This document shows, in pieces, positions 4,771 through 24,306 of a stretch of DNA of 37,067 nucleotides. Under the pieces are notes generated by a model. That model made no database searches and was not told where the DNA came from. It saw only the letters and a program-made list of their open reading frames with translations. This DNA is from a virus, in IMG/VR virus record IMGVR_UViG_3300000956_000035, positions 1 through 37,067 of that record; one strand, written 5' to 3'. Numbering within the stretch: the first letter of the stretch is position 1; each line of letters opens with the position of its first letter. A program made the translations under genes and the position numbers.

Positions 4771-5775
4771 TTATATTGTGGCCGGTGGCAGGATTGCGTT
4801 TAGGTCAGTGGGGAGCCCGAGCGCATACAGGTCGCGCTCAGGGTAAAATCTGAACCGCTTGAACTGCGGAGTTGTCAGGTCAACCAGGGCAATTCCATCT
4901 TGCGTCCCAGTTCCTAGCCTCTCTTCGTTATCAAGGAGTCCCTGTCGCGGGTTGCCGTCTTCGTCCAGGAAGGTTTTCTTCTTGCCGGCCCCTTCGGCGT
5001 GGCCCGTCTCGGTGTAGTAGTGGAAGCCGGCGTCCAGCTTGATGATGTCCCATGTATCGGGGTCCAGCCCGATTTCGTATGTACACCACCAAATTTTCTT
5101 TTCGATGCTGTTGACGGTTCGGTACTCTTCCTCTGACGCCATGCTCATAATCTTCGCGCACCGTGGCGGCACTGGCCCCCACATCGAATCGTTCACGGCA
5201 TCGCGGTAATACATCAGTTTGGGGAGCGAGAGGCCGCCAGGCTCAACACGCTTGATAGTGACGACTGGAAACGACACTTCCCCTTCCGGTGCGGGGTCGA
5301 AAGCCTCGCCAAAGGAATTGGCTATGAGAGAGAGGAATACCTTTTTCTGCCCAGGCTCGTTTGGGTCGGGGTCTGTCGCCTGGCCGTTGGCGTCCACAAC
5401 CTGAGCCCGTACGCCGGTTAGCGCCTTCTTTTTCTTCTCCCAGCGTACGGACATCTTTGGCCGCAGCTCGTTGTCCGTCGGCTCGTAATCGCAGAAGACG
5501 TACCATGTGTGGCGGTCCTCTTGCTGGTCAGCACGGCGACGAACGCAAAAAGAGCGGCTGTCTTTGATTAACAGCCCAGCAATGCCGGATAGAAGCGGTT
5601 GGTACTCATCTCCAATCTGCGGAATGATGCCAACGGAAAACTGCCAGATGTATTCCTGTTCGATGCGGGCTTCGTCTGTGATGACCTGGAAAATGCGCGT
5701 GTGGGCCTTGAGCCCGGTTCGCTCTTCGACGCCGCCACGCCCGCGATGAATTTCACTGATGCTGGTGATTGGCAT
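4771..5775 (-). CDS. Tail-tip or baseplate protein of unknown family
   Basis: 334 residues from ATG 5773-5775, which overlaps the tape-measure stop as TAATG. A longer frame to 5820 would run into the tape-measure gene. The protein is mixed alpha/beta with conspicuous aromatic segments (WWCTYEIGLDPDTWDIIK; FHYYTETGHAEG) and Lys-rich patches. Position directly after the tape measure is that of distal tail proteins in siphophages. Family not recognised. Confidence 0.75.
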   Translation of the reverse strand: MPITSISEIHRGRGGVEERTGLKAHTRIFQVITDEARIEQEYIWQFSVGIIPQIGDEYQPLLSGIAGLLIKDSRSFCVRRRADQQEDRHTWYVFCDYEPTDNELRPKMSVRWEKKKKALTGVRAQVVDANGQATDPDPNEPGQKKVFLSLIANSFGEAFDPAPEGEVSFPVVTIKRVEPGGLSLPKLMYYRDAVNDSMWGPVPPRCAKIMSMASEEEYRTVNSIEKKIWWCTYEIGLDPDTWDIIKLDAGFHYYTETGHAEGAGKKKTFLDEDGNPRQGLLDNEERLGTGTQDGIALVDLTTPQFKRFRFYPERDLYALGLPTDLNAILPPATI

Positions 5776-6908
5776 TAGAAGCTCGCTACTCCTAAGACCA
5801 TCGGGGGACGGGACATCCACATGTTGAGCGTCTTCTCAAGAATCAGCTTCATTTCTCGCTCGTGCCTTGCGGATTCAATCGCGGCTTTCTCGGCGGCGGT
5901 CAGATTCGTAGTCCCCGCGTTGATAATCCGAGCTGCTTCCTGAGAGTCTTTTGCTGCGCCAGTGCCGCGGAGGCGTGTTTCCATGCCGCCGAATTCGCCA
6001 AGCTTCTTGCTACTACCCTTGCCGCCCGGCTTGCCAGCCTCAGCCAGTCTCGCCCCTAGCCAAGCGCCGGCACCACCAAAGACGCCGAAGCCGCTGGCGA
6101 CTTTAATCATCGACTCCCACCGCGCTGCCCCTAGCAGCAGTTCGGAGTTCATTCTGTCTAGTGCGGTCGTGAGATTGAAAATCTGCTGGTTAAGCAGCGT
6201 CATGGGGTCAACGCCGAGTGTCCGCATTTTGTCTGACCATTTCTCAGTTCCGTCGATGGCCGTGTTTAGCAGGTGCTCGATAGCCGGCGAGAGGCGGGCC
6301 ACAATCTTGTCTGTCGTGGCCTCCAAAATGAAATTGAGCTTCGACCATGCGTCATTCATCTTTTCGACGTTACGGGCGTCGATGTCTGAAATCCCCAAGT
6401 CAAACCGCTTGATGAGGTCCGCCGCTTCCTTGAATGCCTTGCCGCCTTGTTTCAATAACGGGAGCAACTTTGCGCCGGACTTGCCAAACAAATCCATCGC
6501 GGCCCGCGCTTGCTCGGCGGGGTCTTTGATTGCCGCAATCGCTTCGGCTTGCTGCAAGAACCGCTGGTCCAAGCTCATCCCACCAGAGCCAATTTTCTTG
6601 CTCATGTGGTCGATGGCTTGCGTCAAATCCTCCAAGCCAAGGCCGGCCATCTTCGCCCCAAGGGCCGCGGCTTGAATCGTCTCAAAGGAAGTGCCGAGCC
6701 GGTCAGCCACCTTGCTCATGGAGTCGATGCGTTCGGCACTGGCCGAAAATGCGTCGATGGCTTTGTTGACAGCACCGAACGCCGCCGCACCTATCGCAGC
6801 CCCAGTAATCAGCTTTCCCAGCGAGCCAACTACGCCGTTGACGCCGGACTTGATGCCCGTCGTGTCAGCGACAAACTTAATCGCCAGCGTTGCTATGTTG
6901 ACTGCCAT
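5775..6908 (-). CDS. Tail tape measure protein (short form)
   Basis: 377 residues. It fixes tail length and is threaded through the tube. An N-terminal segment (KFVADTTGIKSGVNGVVGSL) is followed by a Gly/Ala hydrophobic stretch (GAAIGAAAFGAV), then long helices with the MSKVADRLGTSFETIQ pattern seen in many tape measures, a KIGSGGMSLDQ loop, a second hydrophobic segment near residues 275-290 and a Lys/Gly hinge. It is short for this class. At roughly 0.15 nm per residue it predicts a tail of about 55 nm. It overlaps the frameshifted chaperone frame by 32 bases, as usual for this gene pair. Confidence 0.85.
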   Translation of the reverse strand: MAVNIATLAIKFVADTTGIKSGVNGVVGSLGKLITGAAIGAAAFGAVNKAIDAFSASAERIDSMSKVADRLGTSFETIQAAALGAKMAGLGLEDLTQAIDHMSKKIGSGGMSLDQRFLQQAEAIAAIKDPAEQARAAMDLFGKSGAKLLPLLKQGGKAFKEAADLIKRFDLGISDIDARNVEKMNDAWSKLNFILEATTDKIVARLSPAIEHLLNTAIDGTEKWSDKMRTLGVDPMTLLNQQIFNLTTALDRMNSELLLGAARWESMIKVASGFGVFGGAGAWLGARLAEAGKPGGKGSSKKLGEFGGMETRLRGTGAAKDSQEAARIINAGTTNLTAAEKAAIESARHEREMKLILEKTLNMWMSRPPMVLGVASF

Positions 6909-7194
6909 CTTTGTTTACCGCCGCCGCATCAAGTGCAGCACACATTTCCTCTAGCGACTTCTCCGAGGCTTCGCAGGACGGGAAAAGTTCTCTGAGCGTC
7001 CCTTTGAATCCCATGCTTGCCGCGATTGCCCAAACACCGAAGTCTTTTCGCTCCTGCCCGATCCGTTCCAACCTGCTGAATGCTTTTAGCTCTTCCCATT
7101 CGCGGGCCGTCATTCCCTGCTTGAGTTCTCGGATTGACCTGTAGCCGAGACTCAGGGCAAGCAGCAACTCGTCACGCCGCTTGCCCTCTCTCAG
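6877..7194 (-). CDS. Tail assembly chaperone, downstream (T-like) frame reached by -1 frameshift
   Basis: This frame has no independent ribosome site. It continues in -1 from the upstream chaperone at the slippery site and adds 105 residues. It begins LREGKRRDELLLALSLGY and contains MTAREWEELKAFSRLE with RIGQERKDFGVWAIAAS. This matches the lambda gpT / DUF4035-type pattern (residues resembling SREFAEW, then an E-R-x-D-x-R-like segment). The fused protein would be about 231 residues. In lambda the gpG-GT fusion binds the tape measure and recruits tube subunits, and the tape-measure gene follows here too. Confidence 0.8.
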   Translation of the reverse strand: MREGKRRDELLLALSLGYRSIRELKQGMTAREWEELKAFSRLERIGQERKDFGVWAIAASMGFKGTLRELFPSCEASEKSLEEMCAALDAAAVNKDGSQHSNAGD

Positions 7195-7200
7195 TTTTTT
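7155..7200 (-). promoter_or_regulatory. Programmed -1 ribosomal frameshift signal
   Basis: The heptamer A AAA AAC (7200 down to 7194) is in the correct phase, zero-frame codons AAA AAC, immediately before the stop TGA (7193-7191). Six bases later a stem begins: A7187 and GGGCAAGC (7186-7179) pair with GCTTGCCC (7162-7155) and T7154. Four more pairs, two of them G-U, extend it inward to an 8-base loop. Heptamer, spacer and stem match the textbook arrangement, and the -1 frame is exactly the T-like chaperone. Confidence 0.85.
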
Positions 7201-7571
7201 ACGATCTCCTCTACCTCCACTTCCCCGATGCCGTTGAGCTGCGACGCCGCGATGTACAATCGCTGAACTGCTTTGGTGCTCTTGCCGGCCAGCTTCTCGG
7301 CGGCTTCCTCAATCTGGCCTGGCGAGTAGGCAAACTTCCGCGCTTCGTCGCACAACGCGGACGCCACGGCGAAGGAACGGAAGCGGCGATTGTTCTCTTG
7401 CTTCCGCTGCTCCTTATAGGCGTTCCACGGCACCCAGAGCCGGTCGTCTTGCTCATCAGCGGTCATCTCCGCAATGCAGCAAGTCACCCCTTCGCCGAGT
7501 TCCGGCGTCGGGACAATCCGCACATTCAAGGTCGGTTCTGCGTTCAAAAGCTCGGCGCTAAACTGGGGCAC
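7191..7571 (-). CDS. Tail assembly chaperone, G-like
   Basis: 126 residues from GTG 7569-7571, chosen because AAAGGA lies eight bases upstream; an ATG at 7613 would overlap the previous gene by 56 bases. The protein has an N-terminal beta region (PTLNVRIVPTPELGEG) and a helical C-terminal half (FAVASALCDEARKF, then a region like YIAASQLNGIGE). It ends EEIVKN just before the slippery site. The length, the position between tube and tape measure, and the frameshift identify it as the gpG-type chaperone. Most ribosomes should stop here and a minority make the fusion. Confidence 0.85.
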   Translation of the reverse strand: MPQFSAELLNAEPTLNVRIVPTPELGEGVTCCIAEMTADEQDDRLWVPWNAYKEQRKQENNRRFRSFAVASALCDEARKFAYSPGQIEEAAEKLAGKSTKAVQRLYIAASQLNGIGEVEVEEIVKN

Positions 7572-7833
7572 AAACAATTTCCTTTCGATGCTCTGGCCAC
7601 TCGCAATTCCCATCGAGGTACTGAGTCGCCCACAGTCCTAGATGGCCGGTGTGGTTGGCGCAGTGTTCGATGAGGTAGCAGTGAGTGGTTCCGTCTTTCA
7701 AATCCGTCAGAATTTCGCACCGCCCGTTGTAGGTCTTGGGTAGTCCCGCCAGCGGGCGGAGTTCGCAAGCGCCGCCGACAAGGCAGCACGCACCACAGCG
7801 ATTGCATGGGAGGGTTGCCTGCGGAAGTTCCAT
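7558..7833 (-). CDS. YkgJ-like Cys-cluster metal-binding protein in the tail operon
   Basis: 91 residues from ATG 7831-7833, overlapping the tube-gene stop as TAATG. The N terminus has PCNRCGACC (C10, C13, C16, C17), then C23 and C39, and later HC and NCEW. The CxxCxxCC signature is that of the YkgJ/FliB-like zinc- or iron-chelating domain. Such proteins are normally cellular; here it lies between tail tube and tail chaperones. It could insert metal into a tail protein or be a small virion component. The end overlaps the chaperone start by 14 bases. Confidence 0.75.
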   Translation of the reverse strand: MELPQATLPCNRCGACCLVGGACELRPLAGLPKTYNGRCEILTDLKDGTTHCYLIEHCANHTGHLGLWATQYLDGNCEWPEHRKEIVCAPV

Positions 7834-8249
7834 TAGCCCCTCGTAATCGCCGTGGTGAGCTTGATGGTCACGGCCCGGTTCATTACCGTCTTGCCGTTCA
7901 AGGCCGGCGGCGCGAGGTTCTTGATGTAGCCCGTGAAGGTCCACGTCTTTGAGCTTGTGAGGTTCGCAAACGTGATGATGTTTGACGCCGTCGTGTAGGC
8001 GATTAACGCCGCGTCGAGAATTTCGTCGGTGTCCGCCCCCGGCGTCCAAATGTAGTTCAGGGTCAGCTCGCCGGTGTTGTAGGGACGGCTCGGCAAGAAC
8101 TGCTCGAAGGTCGAATCGAGCGTGGTCGTGTCCACATCGCTGCTGATGGCCAGCGTTGGCGGCGAAATGTCGATGACCTGCGTGACGGTCGTAGCCGCCC
8201 AAGACCACGTAATCCCCTGAGCAACTTTCTTTTCCTGTGCGATTGCCAT
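7833..8249 (-). CDS. Major tail (tube) protein
   Basis: 138 residues from ATG 8247-8249, with AAGGGA six bases upstream. Beta-rich with a typical small-tube layout: N-terminal strand region (ITWSWAATTVTQVIDIS), a loop-rich middle (TFEQFLPSRPYNTGELTL, NYIWTPG), and C-terminal strands (KTWTFTGYIKNLAPPAL, RAVTIKLTTAITRG). The order completion protein, tube, chaperones, tape measure makes this the tube subunit. Confidence 0.8.
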   Translation of the reverse strand: MAIAQEKKVAQGITWSWAATTVTQVIDISPPTLAISSDVDTTTLDSTFEQFLPSRPYNTGELTLNYIWTPGADTDEILDAALIAYTTASNIITFANLTSSKTWTFTGYIKNLAPPALNGKTVMNRAVTIKLTTAITRG

Positions 8250-8259
8250 GTGAAGTCCC

Positions 8260-8763
8260 TTATGGTTTGGAAGCGAGCCGAGCCGCCTCTGCGTTTGCAA
8301 ACTGGCTGATTTTGCTGGCGAACTTGGCTTGTGCTGCCGGCCCCGCTGTCCGTGCCGCCGCTGCCAAGTCGCCGTGTTTCTCTTCGGGGAAATGGGAGTA
8401 GCGGGAAGGCCGCATCGTCTTGGTCCCTGCCGCCTTTGCCGTGGCCTTCGCCTTGGCGGAAAGCACCTTGGCCCCTCGCTTAGTCCGCACGCCCGTTAGT
8501 CCCTTACCGGCCCCCACAAGTCCCCAGGCTGGCTTATCGTGGTGAGCGGGGTTGCGGGAGGCTTGGGGAACGCGAACCTTCACCCGTTGACTCTTGGCGA
8601 GCAGGCCGGTCTTGGAGTGCCGCCGCAAGTTGCTGACGACTTGGTTCTTGACGACGCCCAGGGCCGCGTTAAGGGCGACACGAGTGCCGCGCGTCTGGAC
8701 GCCATGAGCGAAGCCGGATAGCGCCCGTAACGCTTGGGGAACGCCTTGGAGGGTGATGTTCAC
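8260..8763 (-). CDS. HK97 gp10-like tail completion protein
   Basis: 167 residues, very basic. It opens with MNITLQGVPQALRALSGF and continues with a helix containing ALNAALGVVKNQVVSNL and a Lys/Ala-rich middle (LSAKAKATAKAAGTK). It ends with helices (ISQFANAEAARLASKP). The N-terminal strand-then-helix pattern with a central helix followed by KTGLL is that of the gp10 / minor tail family. It overlaps the previous gene by four bases and precedes the tube gene by 10. Confidence 0.75.
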   Translation of the reverse strand: MNITLQGVPQALRALSGFAHGVQTRGTRVALNAALGVVKNQVVSNLRRHSKTGLLAKSQRVKVRVPQASRNPAHHDKPAWGLVGAGKGLTGVRTKRGAKVLSAKAKATAKAAGTKTMRPSRYSHFPEEKHGDLAAAARTAGPAAQAKFASKISQFANAEAARLASKP

Positions 8764-13566: not shown

Positions 13567-14234
13567 CACTTCCCCATTTCTATTTCCAGGTCCAAATCTT
13601 CGTCCTCGTCTGGCTCCGGCTTGTCCGGATCCGCCGCAAGACACTCCGCTGCCTGCTCCGTCGATAGCCGCGACGGGAGGAATGCATCGACCGATTCCCC
13701 CTCGCCAACCACGTCGATGCTGGCGAGCTTCAGGGGCCGCCAGACGGGATTATCTCGTGAGAGGCCGTATTCCTTCATCGCGTCCAAAACGAGCGATGAG
13801 CCGAACGCCCGCGGGTCATCTTTCGCCAGCGCCATGACGTACTTCCCGATTGGCCCGTTTGGGTTGTCCTCGAAGGCTGTTGGGCTCAAGTGGAGGTCTG
13901 CTAGTACCGCTTGCGTCGATGTTCGCCTGCCATCCCGAACAATCGGCACGTCGGCAATGCGTGGATTCCTGGCACGCCCTAAGAGCATCCCTATCCGGTG
14001 CATGTGCTCGCCCGGCTTGGCGTGGCCGTAGTAGGAATGGAGCCCGGCGGGGTCTGACTGGATAAGCCGGACGATGCTTTGCAGCGAACGGTCGTCAAAC
14101 TTGCCGCGCCCTGATGTTTTGAAATCTCCGGACTGCGCGACGACGAAGCCCCGGATAACCTTGGCCTCTTCGTCCACGGCTAGAGTTTCGATTCCGCTGG
14201 TCGTGATGCTGAGTTGTTCAAGTTCCATTGTCAT
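13566..14234 (-). CDS. Prohead maturation protease (HK97 gp4-like)
   Basis: 222 residues from ATG 14232-14234, overlapping the portal stop (ATGA). The layout fits herpes/HK97-type assembly proteases: an N-terminal strand (EEAKVIRGFVVAQSGD) and a His-centred motif SYYGHAKPGEH with H71 the likely catalytic His. A RIGMLLGRA strand follows, then a Ser motif AFGSSLVLD (S146 or S147). The C terminus is extremely acidic (DEDEDLDLEIEM). It would cut the capsid scaffold domain. The family match is by pattern and position. Confidence 0.75.
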   Translation of the reverse strand: MTMELEQLSITTSGIETLAVDEEAKVIRGFVVAQSGDFKTSGRGKFDDRSLQSIVRLIQSDPAGLHSYYGHAKPGEHMHRIGMLLGRARNPRIADVPIVRDGRRTSTQAVLADLHLSPTAFEDNPNGPIGKYVMALAKDDPRAFGSSLVLDAMKEYGLSRDNPVWRPLKLASIDVVGEGESVDAFLPSRLSTEQAAECLAADPDKPEPDEDEDLDLEIEMGK

Positions 14235-15952
14235 AGAGTCACCGTCGCCCTTTCTTCGTGCCACTTGGAAACGCACTCATCGACCTTGGCCGGGAGCTCC
14301 TCGGCCTGGCAGTCCAAGAGCGCGTCGAGTTGTTTGATGGACTCCGCCGTATGCGTGCTGGCCAGAGTCTTGACCACGGCCAGAGCTTCCCGCCCGTCAC
14401 CCGCTGCCGAAAGATAGACCGCCACCGGGTCCAGCAGGTTTCGCTCTAAGGTGGTTGTGTGCTTGCCGTAGAATTCGCGGAGCCGGCTGTCAAACTTCGT
14501 CGCCTTCTCAGCCACACGCTTGACGGCGTTCACCTCCACGGAAAGCATCCGGCTGAAGGTTTCGTTGATGCGGGAGACGGCCTGCGTCGTCACCAGCACT
14601 TGCAGCTTCGCGTTGTCGCTGGCCAGCGTTTCAATCTTCGCTTGGAATTCCTGTCGCAAGCCGTCCACGTCGATGTTGACGGTGGTGGAGAGTTCCGGGT
14701 CGTCTGCCGGCTCTTTCGCAGGCGCGGCTGGCGGTTGCGGTCCCTTGGCGGCCATATCGACGGGAATCATGGCCTGCTGCACGAAATGGATCTTCCCCGC
14801 GCCGCCGGGGATGGGGTTCTCTTCGTCCAGTGCCCGCCATTCGTCCAGATTGATCTTGCCGTTAAAGAACTGGTCTTTCAGTGCCGCCGTACGACTGGCG
14901 AGGTCGCCACGCTCCAGGGCGTCCACAACGTGCCGAGCGAAGAAACGCTTCTGCTCGTTCTCCGTCAGCAGCTTGCGGTTGATCTCCTGCTCCCAAAGCA
15001 CAAGCCACCGCATCAGGCTGTACTTGACGAATTCCAGGGATAGATGCTCGATGTTGGAATAGGTCGCGCGGAGCAAGTGGCCGATAAGATGCGGCGGCAC
15101 GCCGTACCAGCGGGCCACGTCCTCAATCGAGAATTGACGCGACTCAATAAACTGCGAATCCTCGGCGGAGAATTGCAGGGCGTGGAGCTTTGTATCCTTG
15201 GGCAGAATCGCCGGCTTGCCATTGTTCGCCGGCCCGCCGTGAACCTCCATCCATTGCCGCCGAAAATCCTCGCGGTCTTCCTTGGATTTGAAATTCATTC
15301 CCTCGATGGTGTAGCTGGGCCGCCCGCCGTTTCCGAAATAGCTCGCAGCCTGCGTCTCTTCCGCGATGCCGGCCCCGATAGTGAGGCGGGCTTGCGTCAC
15401 CACGCCGATTCCGATAATCCCGTCCTCGGAAATCGGGCTGGGGACGTGCAGCATGTTCTCGGCTCTGATTTTCGTCTTGCTCCCGTCGTCATTGTTGACG
15501 AGATACACGATTTTCCCGTGCTCGCGGACGATGTTTCGGGACGGAATGCGGCTCGCATGGATGGGCCAGAGGTTGATCGGTGTCCCTCCGTCGTCTCGTT
15601 CGATCTCCGAATAGGCGTTGCCACGGTTGACTTGCTGTGCCGTCCGCGACGAGCGGTACATCATGCTCGTCATTTCGGGGTTTGGACGGCTATGAATCAG
15701 GCGATAAACCGGGTGATAATCGGCGATTTCCGAGCCGCCTCCGCCCAATTTCTTGAATAATTTGAGCGGAAGCATACCTTCTGAGGAAGAAAGTAGCATC
15801 GTCGCCGCCCAACACGCCGAATAGGTCAACGCCTTGGCCTCATCAACAACAATTCCGGACGCCGAGGGCTGATTCGCCGGGTTGTACCAGAAATCGTCGG
15901 TAGGCCCAGGCGATAGCTTGCTAAACCCGAAAAAGGTCGTCAGTTCCATCAT
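14231..15952 (-). CDS. Portal protein (HK97-type) with long C-terminal extension
   Basis: 573 residues; ATG 15952 or the next codon, also ATG. It forms the dodecameric DNA gate. Visible portal features include VVDEAKALTYSACWAAT near the N terminus, the RGNAYSEIERD segment and INLWPIHASRI. The helical stem region EDVARWYGVPPHLIGHL then SLMRWLVLWEQEINRKLL is near residues 270-330. From about residue 400 a Pro-rich linker leads to a ~150-residue coiled coil (FQAKIETLASDNAKLQVL) not present in HK97 gp3, possibly a scaffold or crown extension. Confidence 0.9.
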   Translation of the reverse strand: MMELTTFFGFSKLSPGPTDDFWYNPANQPSASGIVVDEAKALTYSACWAATMLLSSSEGMLPLKLFKKLGGGGSEIADYHPVYRLIHSRPNPEMTSMMYRSSRTAQQVNRGNAYSEIERDDGGTPINLWPIHASRIPSRNIVREHGKIVYLVNNDDGSKTKIRAENMLHVPSPISEDGIIGIGVVTQARLTIGAGIAEETQAASYFGNGGRPSYTIEGMNFKSKEDREDFRRQWMEVHGGPANNGKPAILPKDTKLHALQFSAEDSQFIESRQFSIEDVARWYGVPPHLIGHLLRATYSNIEHLSLEFVKYSLMRWLVLWEQEINRKLLTENEQKRFFARHVVDALERGDLASRTAALKDQFFNGKINLDEWRALDEENPIPGGAGKIHFVQQAMIPVDMAAKGPQPPAAPAKEPADDPELSTTVNIDVDGLRQEFQAKIETLASDNAKLQVLVTTQAVSRINETFSRMLSVEVNAVKRVAEKATKFDSRLREFYGKHTTTLERNLLDPVAVYLSAAGDGREALAVVKTLASTHTAESIKQLDALLDCQAEELPAKVDECVSKWHEERATVTL

Positions 15953-19515: not shown

Positions 19516-19638
19516 TTACCCAATCCTCGCTGCGGTTCCGTACGCATCTTCCAGGCGGACTGCTGCGGGGTTGACTGTGCCGGCGACTACAGGCCCGCCA
19601 CCTCCTAACGCGTTTATGAATAGAAACCAGCCACCCAT
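19516..19638 (-). CDS. 40-residue Gly-rich peptide between fibre genes
   Basis: ATG 19636-19638 overlaps the upstream stop as TAATG, and the TAA at 19516 directly precedes the next ATG. The N terminus is hydrophobic (MGGWFLFINALGGGGPVVAG), the rest polar (AVRLEDAYGTAARIG). Placement between two genes without gaps supports translation. Function unknown. Confidence 0.5.
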   Translation of the reverse strand: MGGWFLFINALGGGGPVVAGTVNPAAVRLEDAYGTAARIG

Positions 19639-20732
19639 TAGACCACCTTGCTTTTGAATCCTGAGATACTGATATAAACCGTCGTCAAAGCTCCGCTCAC
19701 GTCATAGGCTAGAGCAGTATTCGCCGTCGTCTTGAAATAGGGCGTTGCTCCCGCAGGCAGGACAACGCCGCCTGTCGCTGGAATCGGAACCGTGAACAGA
19801 ATCGCTCCCGCTGCTCCATCTCGGAAGTCGATATAGCCAGCCGTAGACGATGCATTCCAGCAGACGATAGCTGTAACCACATTGCGGGTGCTGGCTGTAG
19901 CTCCGAAGTTGGTGAACGCCGTTGATGTGCCATCAGTATTGCTCACCCGCTCGCTGATGAGGTCCGCCAGAGGGAATTGCGGGCGGGTAATCAGAGCTGC
20001 GTCTCCATCGCTTACGCAATCCGTGCGGTCAGCGTTTGCGACCATCGTATCGTCGCTGAGAGTTAAAGCTGCGCGAGCCCCGATCTTATGCGGGTTGCCG
20101 GCGTCCACTCCATCATGTGCTACGCTACTTCCAGTAAGCGTACTGACCGTAGTCACAGTGGAGCAGGTCGTCACGGTGCCCACGGTTGTCACCGTCGCCA
20201 GCGTTTGAGCCGCGGAGAGTCCCACGGTCCATGTACCGCTCTGGCTGGCCGGAACAATGTCGTCCGTGGCAATCGTCACCCGCTGCGTCCCGGTATCTCG
20301 CACTCCGGTATTGAGCGAGACGTTCACTCCGCCTTGCTGCGTGATGTTGAAACCGGCTCCGCTGATCGCGTTGTCGATAAGTTGGAGGGCCGTTAAAGCC
20401 GCTCCGTCTACTTGAACTGGGAATGTCCCGCCGTTGTCAACGGTTATTGAGTTGCCGCTATCGTTAATCCCTACTTCGTCCCACGTCCCAGATTGCGACA
20501 CGGCGATTGCAGTCATAGACGCAATCCCCTGCACGGTGAGCACGTTGGCGTTGGCCGTTCCAGCAGTTCCGGTCCCACGAATTGGTAGCGGATTGGTAGC
20601 GGACACGTCGCCATCGTTCGTGCCGTCCGCTCCAATCACAATCTTGGAGCGAGGATACTGGACGCCGCCAATGTCATCAGCCGCAACCGTGGAGCCGCCA
20701 GAACCCGCATTCAAAGTTACGTTGTCTGCCAT
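19638..20732 (-). CDS. Virion fibre protein with repetitive beta body
   Basis: 364 residues. The N terminus ADNVTLNAGSGGSTVAADD followed by GGVQYPRSKIVIGADGT is a widespread opening of phage fibre or virion-associated proteins. The middle has Thr/Val-rich repeats (TVTTVGTVTTCSTVTTVSTL) likely to form a fibrous beta structure, and the end is a compact beta domain (GYIDFRDGAAGAILFTVPIP). It overlaps the 40-residue gene by one base and follows the 748-residue fibre. Confidence 0.75.
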   Translation of the reverse strand: MADNVTLNAGSGGSTVAADDIGGVQYPRSKIVIGADGTNDGDVSATNPLPIRGTGTAGTANANVLTVQGIASMTAIAVSQSGTWDEVGINDSGNSITVDNGGTFPVQVDGAALTALQLIDNAISGAGFNITQQGGVNVSLNTGVRDTGTQRVTIATDDIVPASQSGTWTVGLSAAQTLATVTTVGTVTTCSTVTTVSTLTGSSVAHDGVDAGNPHKIGARAALTLSDDTMVANADRTDCVSDGDAALITRPQFPLADLISERVSNTDGTSTAFTNFGATASTRNVVTAIVCWNASSTAGYIDFRDGAAGAILFTVPIPATGGVVLPAGATPYFKTTANTALAYDVSGALTTVYISISGFKSKVV

Positions 20733-20733
20733 G

Positions 20734-22980
20734 TTATCCGCACCCCATTAAAAGTAAGTTTCCAGAAGAACTTGCACTCACTTCCCCCACCGCCATGAAC
20801 GGCCATTTGAGCGCCGTGCCAGGGGCCGCCGTAAGATTCACCGTCAACCCGCCGCTGCTAAAGCTGGTGAACGTCCCTGCAATGGCGTTCGCTCCGGTGT
20901 GATCCGGCAAGTAGATAAGCTGGTCGTCGCTTTGCGACTGACTATTAACGGGCGTGACGCCCTGCTCTGAACATTGGGAGTTGTGAAATTCAAGCTCACC
21001 TTCACCAGCTAGGTCAGGGCGCGAGACGGCAGCGATTCCACTGACGCTTGCCAGAGCACTGCTCGGAACGTCCGTGTTGATCGCTGTGATGCGGCTGGTG
21101 AGGAATGCGATTGATTCCGGCGTGAAGGCTGGGGCAGGGTCCAGCGTGATGGCCTGGCTGCCGGTGCTCGTGGGAATCGTGGCGATGCCAACTGCTACTT
21201 TCTTCGTGCTCCCATAATCGACGCAGAAGAACGCAAACTCGGCCCCGGCATCACTCCCGTACAGAGTCGTTGTCCACCGAAGCGTAGTGGAGTTTGGAAA
21301 CGTGAGGTCGTGTTCGGACGAATGGACGGTGGCGCTTTCCAGCGGATCCCAGTGGGGATAAAACGACGTGCTGATATAGCCAGCGTTGTCCGAGGCGGTT
21401 GAATCTAAAGCACGCTTGGCAATAGTAAGTCCAGCCTGAGTGACCGTGCCCGCCTTGTCGTTGCCGAAGAAAGTCAGAGTGAACGCTGAAAATCCACCGT
21501 GGCCCATCGAACCGCCGTACTGGTCGCCATTGCCGGCTGCGATGATGAGGTTCGGCTCAAAGCTGATGGTCTGGTCAACCGAGTTCCCCTGCACGTCGCT
21601 GGCGGTGACTACGTATATTTTGGTCTGAACATTCCCGGCGAACAGCAAGACGTGAAGGAATTGAGCCGTGGCTGGCGGGTCCACCATATTGAACCGCAGG
21701 CCGTCTGTGATCTTGGAATTGAGCGTGATCCTCGCTGTCTCGATACTTGTTGGTGAAGCGTTCCGCCCGATGGCATTCCAGCAGTAGGCGCAGTTCTCGC
21801 TGTGGGCATCGGTGTTGGTGGACTCACCGTGGCTCATTCGGTTGGCGTGGGCGATTTGCTCGGCCACTCCGGAAGCAACGGCAGTTCCGGTCCCTGTCAC
21901 GAAGCCATAGCACCACTGAGCATCATCGACGGGAGTCCCATCGGCAGCGGCATTGTTGCCCCAGACAATGGCCCCGCGTATTTGCTCGGCCACTCCCAGG
22001 CCGGGAACCGTCACGTCAAACGTGGTGACGCTCGTCGGCATGGACACCCGGACCAAGACGGGAGCGATGCGGTAATACACTACGTTAATCGTCAGGGCGA
22101 TGGTGTCGTTCCCTGCTGGATTCGTCGCCGTCACCGTAACCAAATACGTGTTGTCCGTGTTGGCGTCCGTGGGCGACTCGTAATTCAGAGCGACGGCTGC
22201 CGTGAGAATGCCGGTCGAGGAGCCGATGGAGAATCGGGCGGCATCGGTCCCGCTGAGTGAGTACGTGACGCCCGTCCCCGTCGCCGTGATGGTGGCAACC
22301 GCCGTCGTCACAAGCCCCTCTTGGAATTCAATCGTGGCAGGGTTGCCGCCGTTGTAGGTGATGACCGGAACATCCAAGCCTTCGGCATAGAGACTGGCGA
22401 CGTTGGCCGATTCGTCGGAGTCAAACACCTTGCAGTAGGCCAGCTTCCCGTCATGGAAGCTCGTGGTGGCGAGGCCCAGGCGGTTGACGGCCATCGTCAC
22501 GGCCCCGGCCTGAGCTCCGGTGACTGACTCAACTCCGTCGATGAAAACCCGCCAGCTATCCCCGGCTGTCTTGGTAACGAGAATGTGGTGCCAAGCCGTG
22601 GTGCCAAGCGCGGGAACGGTGAAGGTGAGGCTGGTACTGGTCGGCCTGACAATAACCGTCGTGTCAGCGGTGATGCGGATCGAATTGTTGTTGCTGCCGC
22701 CGGAGTTGCCGAAGATGCGGCCCGTGGTGCCGTCCAATTTGAACCACGCCGAGAACGAACACGCGGCCCCACTGGCGAAGGAAATGGCGCTGGCCGCAAT
22801 GTCTACGGCGTCATCAGTGCCGTTCAAATCGAAAGCGAGCGTTGCCGAACCGCCGGGCCCAGCCGCAGACTTGACGGAGGTGTTGTCACCGCCGAGCAGC
22901 GTGCCGTTGGTGCCGACCGTCGCCACAACCGTCGTTGAGGCGGCGTTGTCAGCTAATGCCCAGTGTTGAGTCAGTGCCAT
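20734..22980 (-). CDS. Large tail fibre with LamG/ConA-like and cadherin-like domains
   Basis: 748 residues. Residues 1 to about 200 form a LamG/ConA-like lectin fold (LTQHWALADNAASTT, CSFSAWFKLDG, WHHILVTKTAGDSWRVFIDG). About 205-305 is a cadherin-like repeat (VTYSLSGTDAARFSIGSSTG, ALNYESPTDANTDNTYLVTV). The remaining ~440 residues form a beta-rich domain I cannot assign, with several His/Cys (HSENCAYCWN) and a GCG end. The lectin-like start suggests glycan binding on the host. Confidence 0.75.
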   Translation of the reverse strand: MALTQHWALADNAASTTVVATVGTNGTLLGGDNTSVKSAAGPGGSATLAFDLNGTDDAVDIAASAISFASGAACSFSAWFKLDGTTGRIFGNSGGSNNNSIRITADTTVIVRPTSTSLTFTVPALGTTAWHHILVTKTAGDSWRVFIDGVESVTGAQAGAVTMAVNRLGLATTSFHDGKLAYCKVFDSDESANVASLYAEGLDVPVITYNGGNPATIEFQEGLVTTAVATITATGTGVTYSLSGTDAARFSIGSSTGILTAAVALNYESPTDANTDNTYLVTVTATNPAGNDTIALTINVVYYRIAPVLVRVSMPTSVTTFDVTVPGLGVAEQIRGAIVWGNNAAADGTPVDDAQWCYGFVTGTGTAVASGVAEQIAHANRMSHGESTNTDAHSENCAYCWNAIGRNASPTSIETARITLNSKITDGLRFNMVDPPATAQFLHVLLFAGNVQTKIYVVTASDVQGNSVDQTISFEPNLIIAAGNGDQYGGSMGHGGFSAFTLTFFGNDKAGTVTQAGLTIAKRALDSTASDNAGYISTSFYPHWDPLESATVHSSEHDLTFPNSTTLRWTTTLYGSDAGAEFAFFCVDYGSTKKVAVGIATIPTSTGSQAITLDPAPAFTPESIAFLTSRITAINTDVPSSALASVSGIAAVSRPDLAGEGELEFHNSQCSEQGVTPVNSQSQSDDQLIYLPDHTGANAIAGTFTSFSSGGLTVNLTAAPGTALKWPFMAVGEVSASSSGNLLLMGCG

Positions 22981-24306
22981 TTAATCCACCAAAAACAGTT
23001 CCGTCGCATCCGGCGGCGGCGTGAAGCTCAGCTTCTTGAGCAGCATTGCGGGCTGCTTCACCGTGCCGCTGAGAATCAAGTCGCCGCTGTAGTTGATCTC
23101 ATAACCGAAAGGGCAGCCTTCCGCGTGGTTGTCGGTCGAGTGGAAGGTGGTTCTGGGCGTGACGAATTTACCCGTGCGGCCCTGAGCAATCCCTGAAAGC
23201 GTGTAGGCGACTGGACAACGGCGGGCCATGTTGCGAGCGAAGTGAAATCCTCGCTGGCGGCTGGCGAAGTCGTATGTAATGCCGGGGTGTGTCGGGAGCC
23301 CGCTCAGGAATCCGGAGTAGGCGGGATAATCGCTGAAAATTCCGGGGGCATCGGGGAATGGCAGTAGGGCGTTGATGCGAGCCCAAAAGCTGATGCCCAA
23401 AGCGCAGTCTTCCACCACGTTCTCCGTCACGTCGTTGCTGACGGAGCGGCCCCAGATTCCGGCCCCGTCAGAATCGCCGTCACGGATCGCACCCAGCTCA
23501 AACTTGTCCAAGTGTGTCCCCGCCGTAATGTTGCGGACGGTGTTGCGACTCACGATGTTCCCGAACTCGTTGCCGAATTCAAAGGCGATACCTGCCCCAC
23601 GTCCGCCGTCAAACAGGTTGTCCGTGACGAGTCCGCAGTGCGAATCGTGGATTGCCAGCCCCCACTTTCGGGAGCGGAGTACTTGGCAGCCCACGAATTC
23701 AAACTGCGGCGAGCCGAGCAAGTCCGGCAGCCCGCGCAGGTGATGCAGGTGGACGGCGTAGCGGCCAATGTGATTGGTCACGGGGTCCAGCGGGTCGCCG
23801 AAGGTGCGACCCAGGTCCGCGAAGGTGGCGCCATGAATCCGCACGTCCGCATCTTCGGTAAACAGCGTGTGGCCGCGAACGCCAGCCGGATTCTCGCTCT
23901 TGAGCGTGACGAGCCCACCGCCGTAGATGCTGACCGTACTCCCGTGCTGGACAAGCAAGCCGTTGCCGAATTGCTCCGGGTCTTCGAGCGGCAAGTCACG
24001 GAACACGATCTCCCCGACTTGCTTCATGGGAGCCGCGGCAGTCCCCATTTCCAGCCCGCCATGCTCCACCTGGAGCGTCTGCACCATCAGTTGGGAATCG
24101 ACGCCGGGATTGAACGCAAGGCTGCCATGCTCCACGCGGACGGCTCTGGCGATAGCATCCCCGGCGACTGTCACGCGATGCCCGATGCTTACTCCGCTGG
24201 TTGCCGTGGGAACGCCGGCTGACCAGGTGGCAGAGTCCGGCCACGGGCCATCCTTGACGCTCTTAGTGTCGGGAGAGGGTACGAAGTTGGGGATGTTGTC
24301 GGCCAT
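22981..24306 (-). CDS. G8-domain plus right-handed beta-helix tailspike, probable depolymerase
   Basis: 441 residues. After a disordered start, residues ~18-110 match the G8 pattern: DGPWPDSATWSAGVP, VSIGHRVTVAG, VRVEHGSLAF, LQVEHGGLEMGT and VGEIVFRD. From ~115 on it is a right-handed parallel beta-helix with NTVRNI, NVVEDCALGISFW and NMARRCPVAY turns and His/Asp-rich loops (VHLHHLRG, AIHDSHCG). G8 plus beta-helix is the architecture of CEMIP/TMEM2-type polysaccharide-binding proteins. On a phage it fits capsule or matrix degradation. Active site not identified. Confidence 0.8.
   Translation of the reverse strand: MADNIPNFVPSPDTKSVKDGPWPDSATWSAGVPTATSGVSIGHRVTVAGDAIARAVRVEHGSLAFNPGVDSQLMVQTLQVEHGGLEMGTAAAPMKQVGEIVFRDLPLEDPEQFGNGLLVQHGSTVSIYGGGLVTLKSENPAGVRGHTLFTEDADVRIHGATFADLGRTFGDPLDPVTNHIGRYAVHLHHLRGLPDLLGSPQFEFVGCQVLRSRKWGLAIHDSHCGLVTDNLFDGGRGAGIAFEFGNEFGNIVSRNTVRNITAGTHLDKFELGAIRDGDSDGAGIWGRSVSNDVTENVVEDCALGISFWARINALLPFPDAPGIFSDYPAYSGFLSGLPTHPGITYDFASRQRGFHFARNMARRCPVAYTLSGIAQGRTGKFVTPRTTFHSTDNHAEGCPFGYEINYSGDLILSGTVKQPAMLLKKLSFTPPPDATELFLVD

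Follow-up and report, generated by a model that had tools for sequence, protein, structure and literature searches.

Gene organization of the tail locus

The sequence analysed here, hereafter the window, spans a virus record in full (37,067 bases) and carries an integrase-like gene. On its minus strand, the order of transcription runs through terminase, portal, major head protein, connector, tail completion, major tail protein, G-like, T-like and tape-measure genes. The stretch from the major tail protein to the tape measure contains the following features:

7833 to 8300, minus strand: gene for the major tail (tube) protein, preceding the chaperone genes in transcription (match to PHROG_158, major tail protein, at E = 3.4e-8).
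7191 to 7613, minus strand: G-like tail assembly chaperone open reading frame, 140 residues from ATG 7613 or 126 residues from GTG 7571, ending ...VEEIVKN-stop (PHROG_344); aligned relatives share the ending xKN.
7194 to 7200, minus strand: slippery heptamer A AAA AAC, assigned from its phase in the sequence and from the homologous site in relatives.
7191 to 7193, minus strand: TGA that ends the G-like gene in the zero frame, immediately 3' of the heptamer.
6877 to 7197, minus strand: gpT-like extension in the -1 frame (PHROG_337; Pfam Phage_tail_T below threshold; PHROG_14766 across the junction).
5775 to 6908, minus strand: tape-measure-like gene, which starts at ATG 6908, before the T frame has ended (matches to several tape-measure families of PHROG, the best of those with a name being phrog_9483, E = 5.2e-20).

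An earlier, sequence-only reading of this DNA had proposed a G-like chaperone gene, a T/DUF4035-like product of the -1 frame and a tape-measure gene after it. Profile searches bear out the first and the last of these assignments: residues 20-139 of the G-like open reading frame match the PHROG_344 tail assembly chaperone family (E = 9.6e-8), and the gene after the T frame falls in the tape-measure families listed above. The middle assignment was right in part. The -1 frame is T-like, matching the PHROG_337 tail protein family (E = 2.2e-7), whereas no DUF4035 match was reported against curated Pfam, where the T part reached 14.7 bits for Phage_tail_T, below the cut-off of 25.9. The NCBIfam search returned no useful family. 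When the two frames were spliced in silico, residues 81-199 of the fused G-T sequence matched PHROG_14766 across the junction (E = 1.2e-4), a better match than that of T alone (E = 0.0017).

The tape-measure-like protein (5775-6908, minus strand) is only 377 residues long, a size for which the usual length rule would imply a very short tail. Elsewhere on the minus strand, the portal protein (14231-15952) is extended at its C terminus by about 150 residues that are missing in isolate-phage homologues and partly matched in several environmental contigs, and three large consecutive open reading frames of 364, 748 and 441 residues (19638-24306) have no PHROG match at E 0.01.

Slip site and reading frames

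The heptamer A AAA AAC lies at 7200-7194 (minus strand) in the phase X_XXY_YYZ. The zero frame reads GTA AAA AAC TGA, and the stop codon of the G-like gene (7193-7191) directly abuts the heptamer, as the sequence-only reading had it. As a string of letters, AAAAAAC is not rare: it occurs twice in any phase in the 37,067 bases, as against 4.7 expected. In-phase X_XXY_YYZ heptamers number 15 in the 6866 codons of the 24 open reading frames of the window tallied as genes, or about one per 458 codons. Among these 24, the site at 7200-7194 is the sole in-phase A AAA AAC and the sole X_XXY_YYZ heptamer that adjoins a stop codon. What is unusual about it is thus its phase and position, not the heptamer alone.

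The extension in the -1 frame begins K-L-R-E-G... and runs to a stop at 6877. The same reading had described this frame as having no ribosome site of its own, and no plausible start was found in it: from its opening at 7308 to the TTG at 7167, the frame contains no ATG, GTG or TTG. The start of the G-like open reading frame at GTG 7571 is preceded by AAAGGA, and the predicted fusion would be 231 residues long from this codon, the length originally put forward, or 245 residues from ATG 7613.

Conservation of the site in relatives

Judged by its sequence, the phage is divergent and isolated. Scans of viral contigs with single G, T, tape-measure and portal proteins returned zero relatives, and a tblastn search of G against phage records gave one weak partial match only. 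Relatives were reached through a portal alignment, which was used in viral and genome scans, then through PHROG_337 and PHROG_344 matches in the records found, and from these through a G alignment. Most portal relatives carry other tail modules; 35 of their records were searched against PHROG, with usable matches to G and T. The G alignment was used to fetch the best 80 viral loci, and a search of phage records added 12 annotated loci. The family set comprises 97 sequences including the window, and 65 once near-duplicates are removed. The best aligned G relative, a Marinobacter member, is 32% identical.

In 59 of the 65 dereplicated members (the viral loci being the best 80), G carries an in-phase X_XXY_YYZ heptamer towards its end, and the -1 frame is open from there. 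A AAA AAC is the commonest among the 59, with 27 occurrences, as compared with 11 of G GGA AAC and 21 of others, although these proportions are not unbiased because the survey was seeded by a relative itself carrying A AAA AAC and kept the best 80 viral loci. Other heptamers at the homologous place include AAATTTC, CCCTTTC and GGGTTTC. A Marinobacter prophage, an Omnitrophota contig and one viral contig (L021) share A AAA AAC at the corresponding protein position (...KN), and a Microbulbifer prophage has A AAA AAT instead. All six loci nearest to the window in T have an in-phase heptamer, and the T frame of two of them (L284 and L287) is closed just before it.

The remaining 6 of the 65 members have no canonical heptamer. 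At the homologous place they carry GGATTTC (five members) or ATCTTTC (one member), each leading into the T frame. GGATTTC (in L208, L231, L265, L267 and L274) lies in the same phase near the end of G and is a possible non-canonical slip site, at which only the A-site codon would re-pair well. The heptamer had been expected to persist in related phages; among relatives that are all distant this expectation held, in that members without A AAA AAC usually have another in-phase heptamer at or near the same place, and only these six are restricted to a non-canonical one. The accompanying remark that A AAA AAC is seldom discussed for phage tail genes was a fair one, but the unusualness that it implied did not stand, given that this heptamer is the commonest in the family and is published for phage phiCbK and others.

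In the isolate phages Jflix2, phiSASD1 and Dubu of this family, the junction is annotated as a joined CDS. The Arthrobacter phages Laroye and Shrooms (L277 and L280) have G GGA AAA late in the annotated chaperone gene, where the -1 frame is open, and no joined CDS is annotated there.

Elements flanking the slip site

Three elements flank the heptamer:

7154 to 7187, minus strand: probable stimulatory hairpin predicted by folding, with a 13-bp stem (7187-7175 paired with 7166-7154) and an 8-nt loop.
7147 to 7192, minus strand: outer 4-bp helix (7192-7189 paired with 7150-7147) around the hairpin, predicted by folding.
7201 to 7224, minus strand: purine-rich stretch GGAAGTGGAGGTAGAGGAGATCGT upstream of the heptamer, with the Shine-Dalgarno (SD)-like motifs GGAGG and GAGGAG, recognized in the sequence.

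The hairpin agrees with the initial description of a 6-base spacer followed by a stem of nine strong pairs extended by four more. The spacer from the heptamer is TGAGAG (7193-7188), and the 13-bp stem is made up of the nine strong pairs and the additional four. The predicted folding energy is -32.2 kcal/mol (z = -3.9), a value that none of 200 shuffled sequences equalled. With a 60-nt folding window z is -4.6, which is among the strongest values of the chaperone family. Across the family, the 60 nt downstream of the heptamer have a mean z of -1.48, as against -0.21 farther downstream and -0.06 upstream (p ~1e-6). Downstream stimulatory structures are common, but not universal, in tail chaperone frameshifts.

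The SD-like purines at 7201-7224 (minus strand) may act as a further stimulator, an effect on shifting suggested by their sequence. In the chaperone family, such purines often lie some 5-8 nt upstream of the slip site, and 51 of the 59 members with a heptamer have an SD-like tetramer in the roughly 20 nt before it. Because synonymous codon resampling yields 42.5 +/- 2.8 of these 59, most of the signal is due to conserved Glu-Glu residues, with a modest excess left over; and because the conserved glutamates account for most of the enrichment, we treat the purines as a candidate stimulator only.

The A-site codon is AAC or TTC, as opposed to AAT or TTT, in 47 of 49 family sites, compared with a background of 307 to 119 in the genes (p ~9e-5, which is optimistic because the test treats related sequences as independent). 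For Escherichia coli, a review (PMC5009743) reports A AAA AAC to be far less prone to shifting than A AAA AAG. That C-ending heptamers, together with helper elements, might keep the shift rate of this family deliberately low is a tentative idea that we consider unlikely.

Alternative explanations

Reinitiation, transcriptional slippage and assembly error were each weighed as explanations of the junction, and all were rejected. The T-like part could be made separately, by termination and reinitiation close to the end of G. One candidate codon is TTG 7167, which sits in the T frame about 25 nt past the G stop. This codon lies at the edge of the hairpin loop without a convincing Shine-Dalgarno sequence before it, and a start there would drop the first ten post-shift residues, including the conserved R7 of the T alignment. 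The closed T frame just before the heptamer in L284 and L287, where only the shift could join T to G, also speaks against separate initiation, under which the recurring in-phase heptamers of the relatives would be needless. We therefore regard it as improbable.

Even less probable is slippage of RNA polymerase on the run of six A's that forms the slip site, which would alter the number of A's in the mRNA and so bring the T frame into register with G. Six A's make a short run for slippage during transcription. The equivalent position in relatives is taken by GGGAAAC, AAATTTC, CCCTTTC or GGGTTTC, which are non-homopolymers that all permit tandem tRNA slippage, and this speaks against a polymerase-based shift. 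Finally, the record is a virus contig from a public collection and homopolymers are error-prone, but the chance that G and T are really one unbroken gene, split by a sequencing or assembly error at the A6 run, is close to negligible, since dozens of independent contigs share this frame break at the corresponding protein position, as do isolate phages including Dubu and phiSASD1, and phiCbK has an equivalent break.

Probable programmed frameshifting at the G-T junction

The site, its phase, the hairpin, the frames, the homologies, the gene order and the recurrence in relatives can all be read directly from the sequences, and they indicate that 7200-7194 is very probably a programmed -1 ribosomal frameshift site of the lambda gpG/gpGT type. 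From them we infer that slippage occurs and at what rate, what the hairpin does and how the products serve in assembly. Most ribosomes would terminate at TGA 7193-7191 and yield the G-like chaperone. A minority would be held up by the hairpin starting 6 nt past the heptamer, with the upstream SD-like purines possibly assisting slippage. Both tRNAs would then slip back one base on A AAA AAC, the stop would be bypassed and a G-T fusion of 231 or 245 residues would result. By analogy with lambda, G would form a coat on the tape-measure protein, and G-T would recruit tail-tube subunits through its T part (PMC5009743). Counted against frameshifting are the reported lower shift-proneness of A AAA AAC in E. 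coli (PMC5009743), the 6 of 65 members without a canonical heptamer and the identity of only 32% to the nearest aligned G.

This analysis provides a firm annotation of a predicted G-T fusion for a divergent phage or prophage with chaperones below curated Pfam cut-offs. It presents A AAA AAC as a usual slip site of this chaperone family, in which it even predominates, and not as a curiosity. A strong single-hairpin example is added, and the general picture of tail chaperone frameshifting is unchanged.

Comparison with known systems

Frameshifts of the tail chaperone class are textbook and standard in long-tailed phages, and A AAA AAC, which has published precedents, is commonplace in this family. 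The window shares with lambda gpG/gpGT a short chaperone with a -1 extension; in both, the slippery heptamer lies towards the end of G and the tape-measure gene follows (PMC5009743). It differs from lambda in its heptamer, A AAA AAC, in the stop codon directly after it and in the assignment of its proteins to PHROG_344 and PHROG_337.

Heptamer and layout are identical to those of gp93/gp94 of the Caulobacter phage phiCbK (PMC3556154; NC_019405), in which A AAA AAC also lies in phase directly before the stop and the tape measure comes next. In the phiCbK record, which we inspected, the chaperone ends ...AAKN-stop and the junction is annotated as a programmed frameshift. phiCbK differs in being a very large phage (216 kb) with a TAA stop, and the likeness described here is one of heptamer and layout. 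A AAA AAC has been published for phiCbK and its close relatives, whereas Colossus uses GGGAAAC (PMC3556154). By published description, the same heptamer is shared with the tail chaperone frameshifts of the Paenibacillus larvae phage Dragolir, where it is tentative (PMC6003738), and of the archaeal halovirus HCTV-2 (PMC5009743).

The PHROG_344/PHROG_337 pairs of siphophages and prophages (Marinobacter, Rhodococcus, Streptomyces, Moraxella and Acinetobacter) are alike in having homologous G, T and site, better-than-control folding downstream and A AAA AAC as the commonest heptamer. Compared with these pairs, the proteins of the window are divergent, and the heptamer varies among the members.
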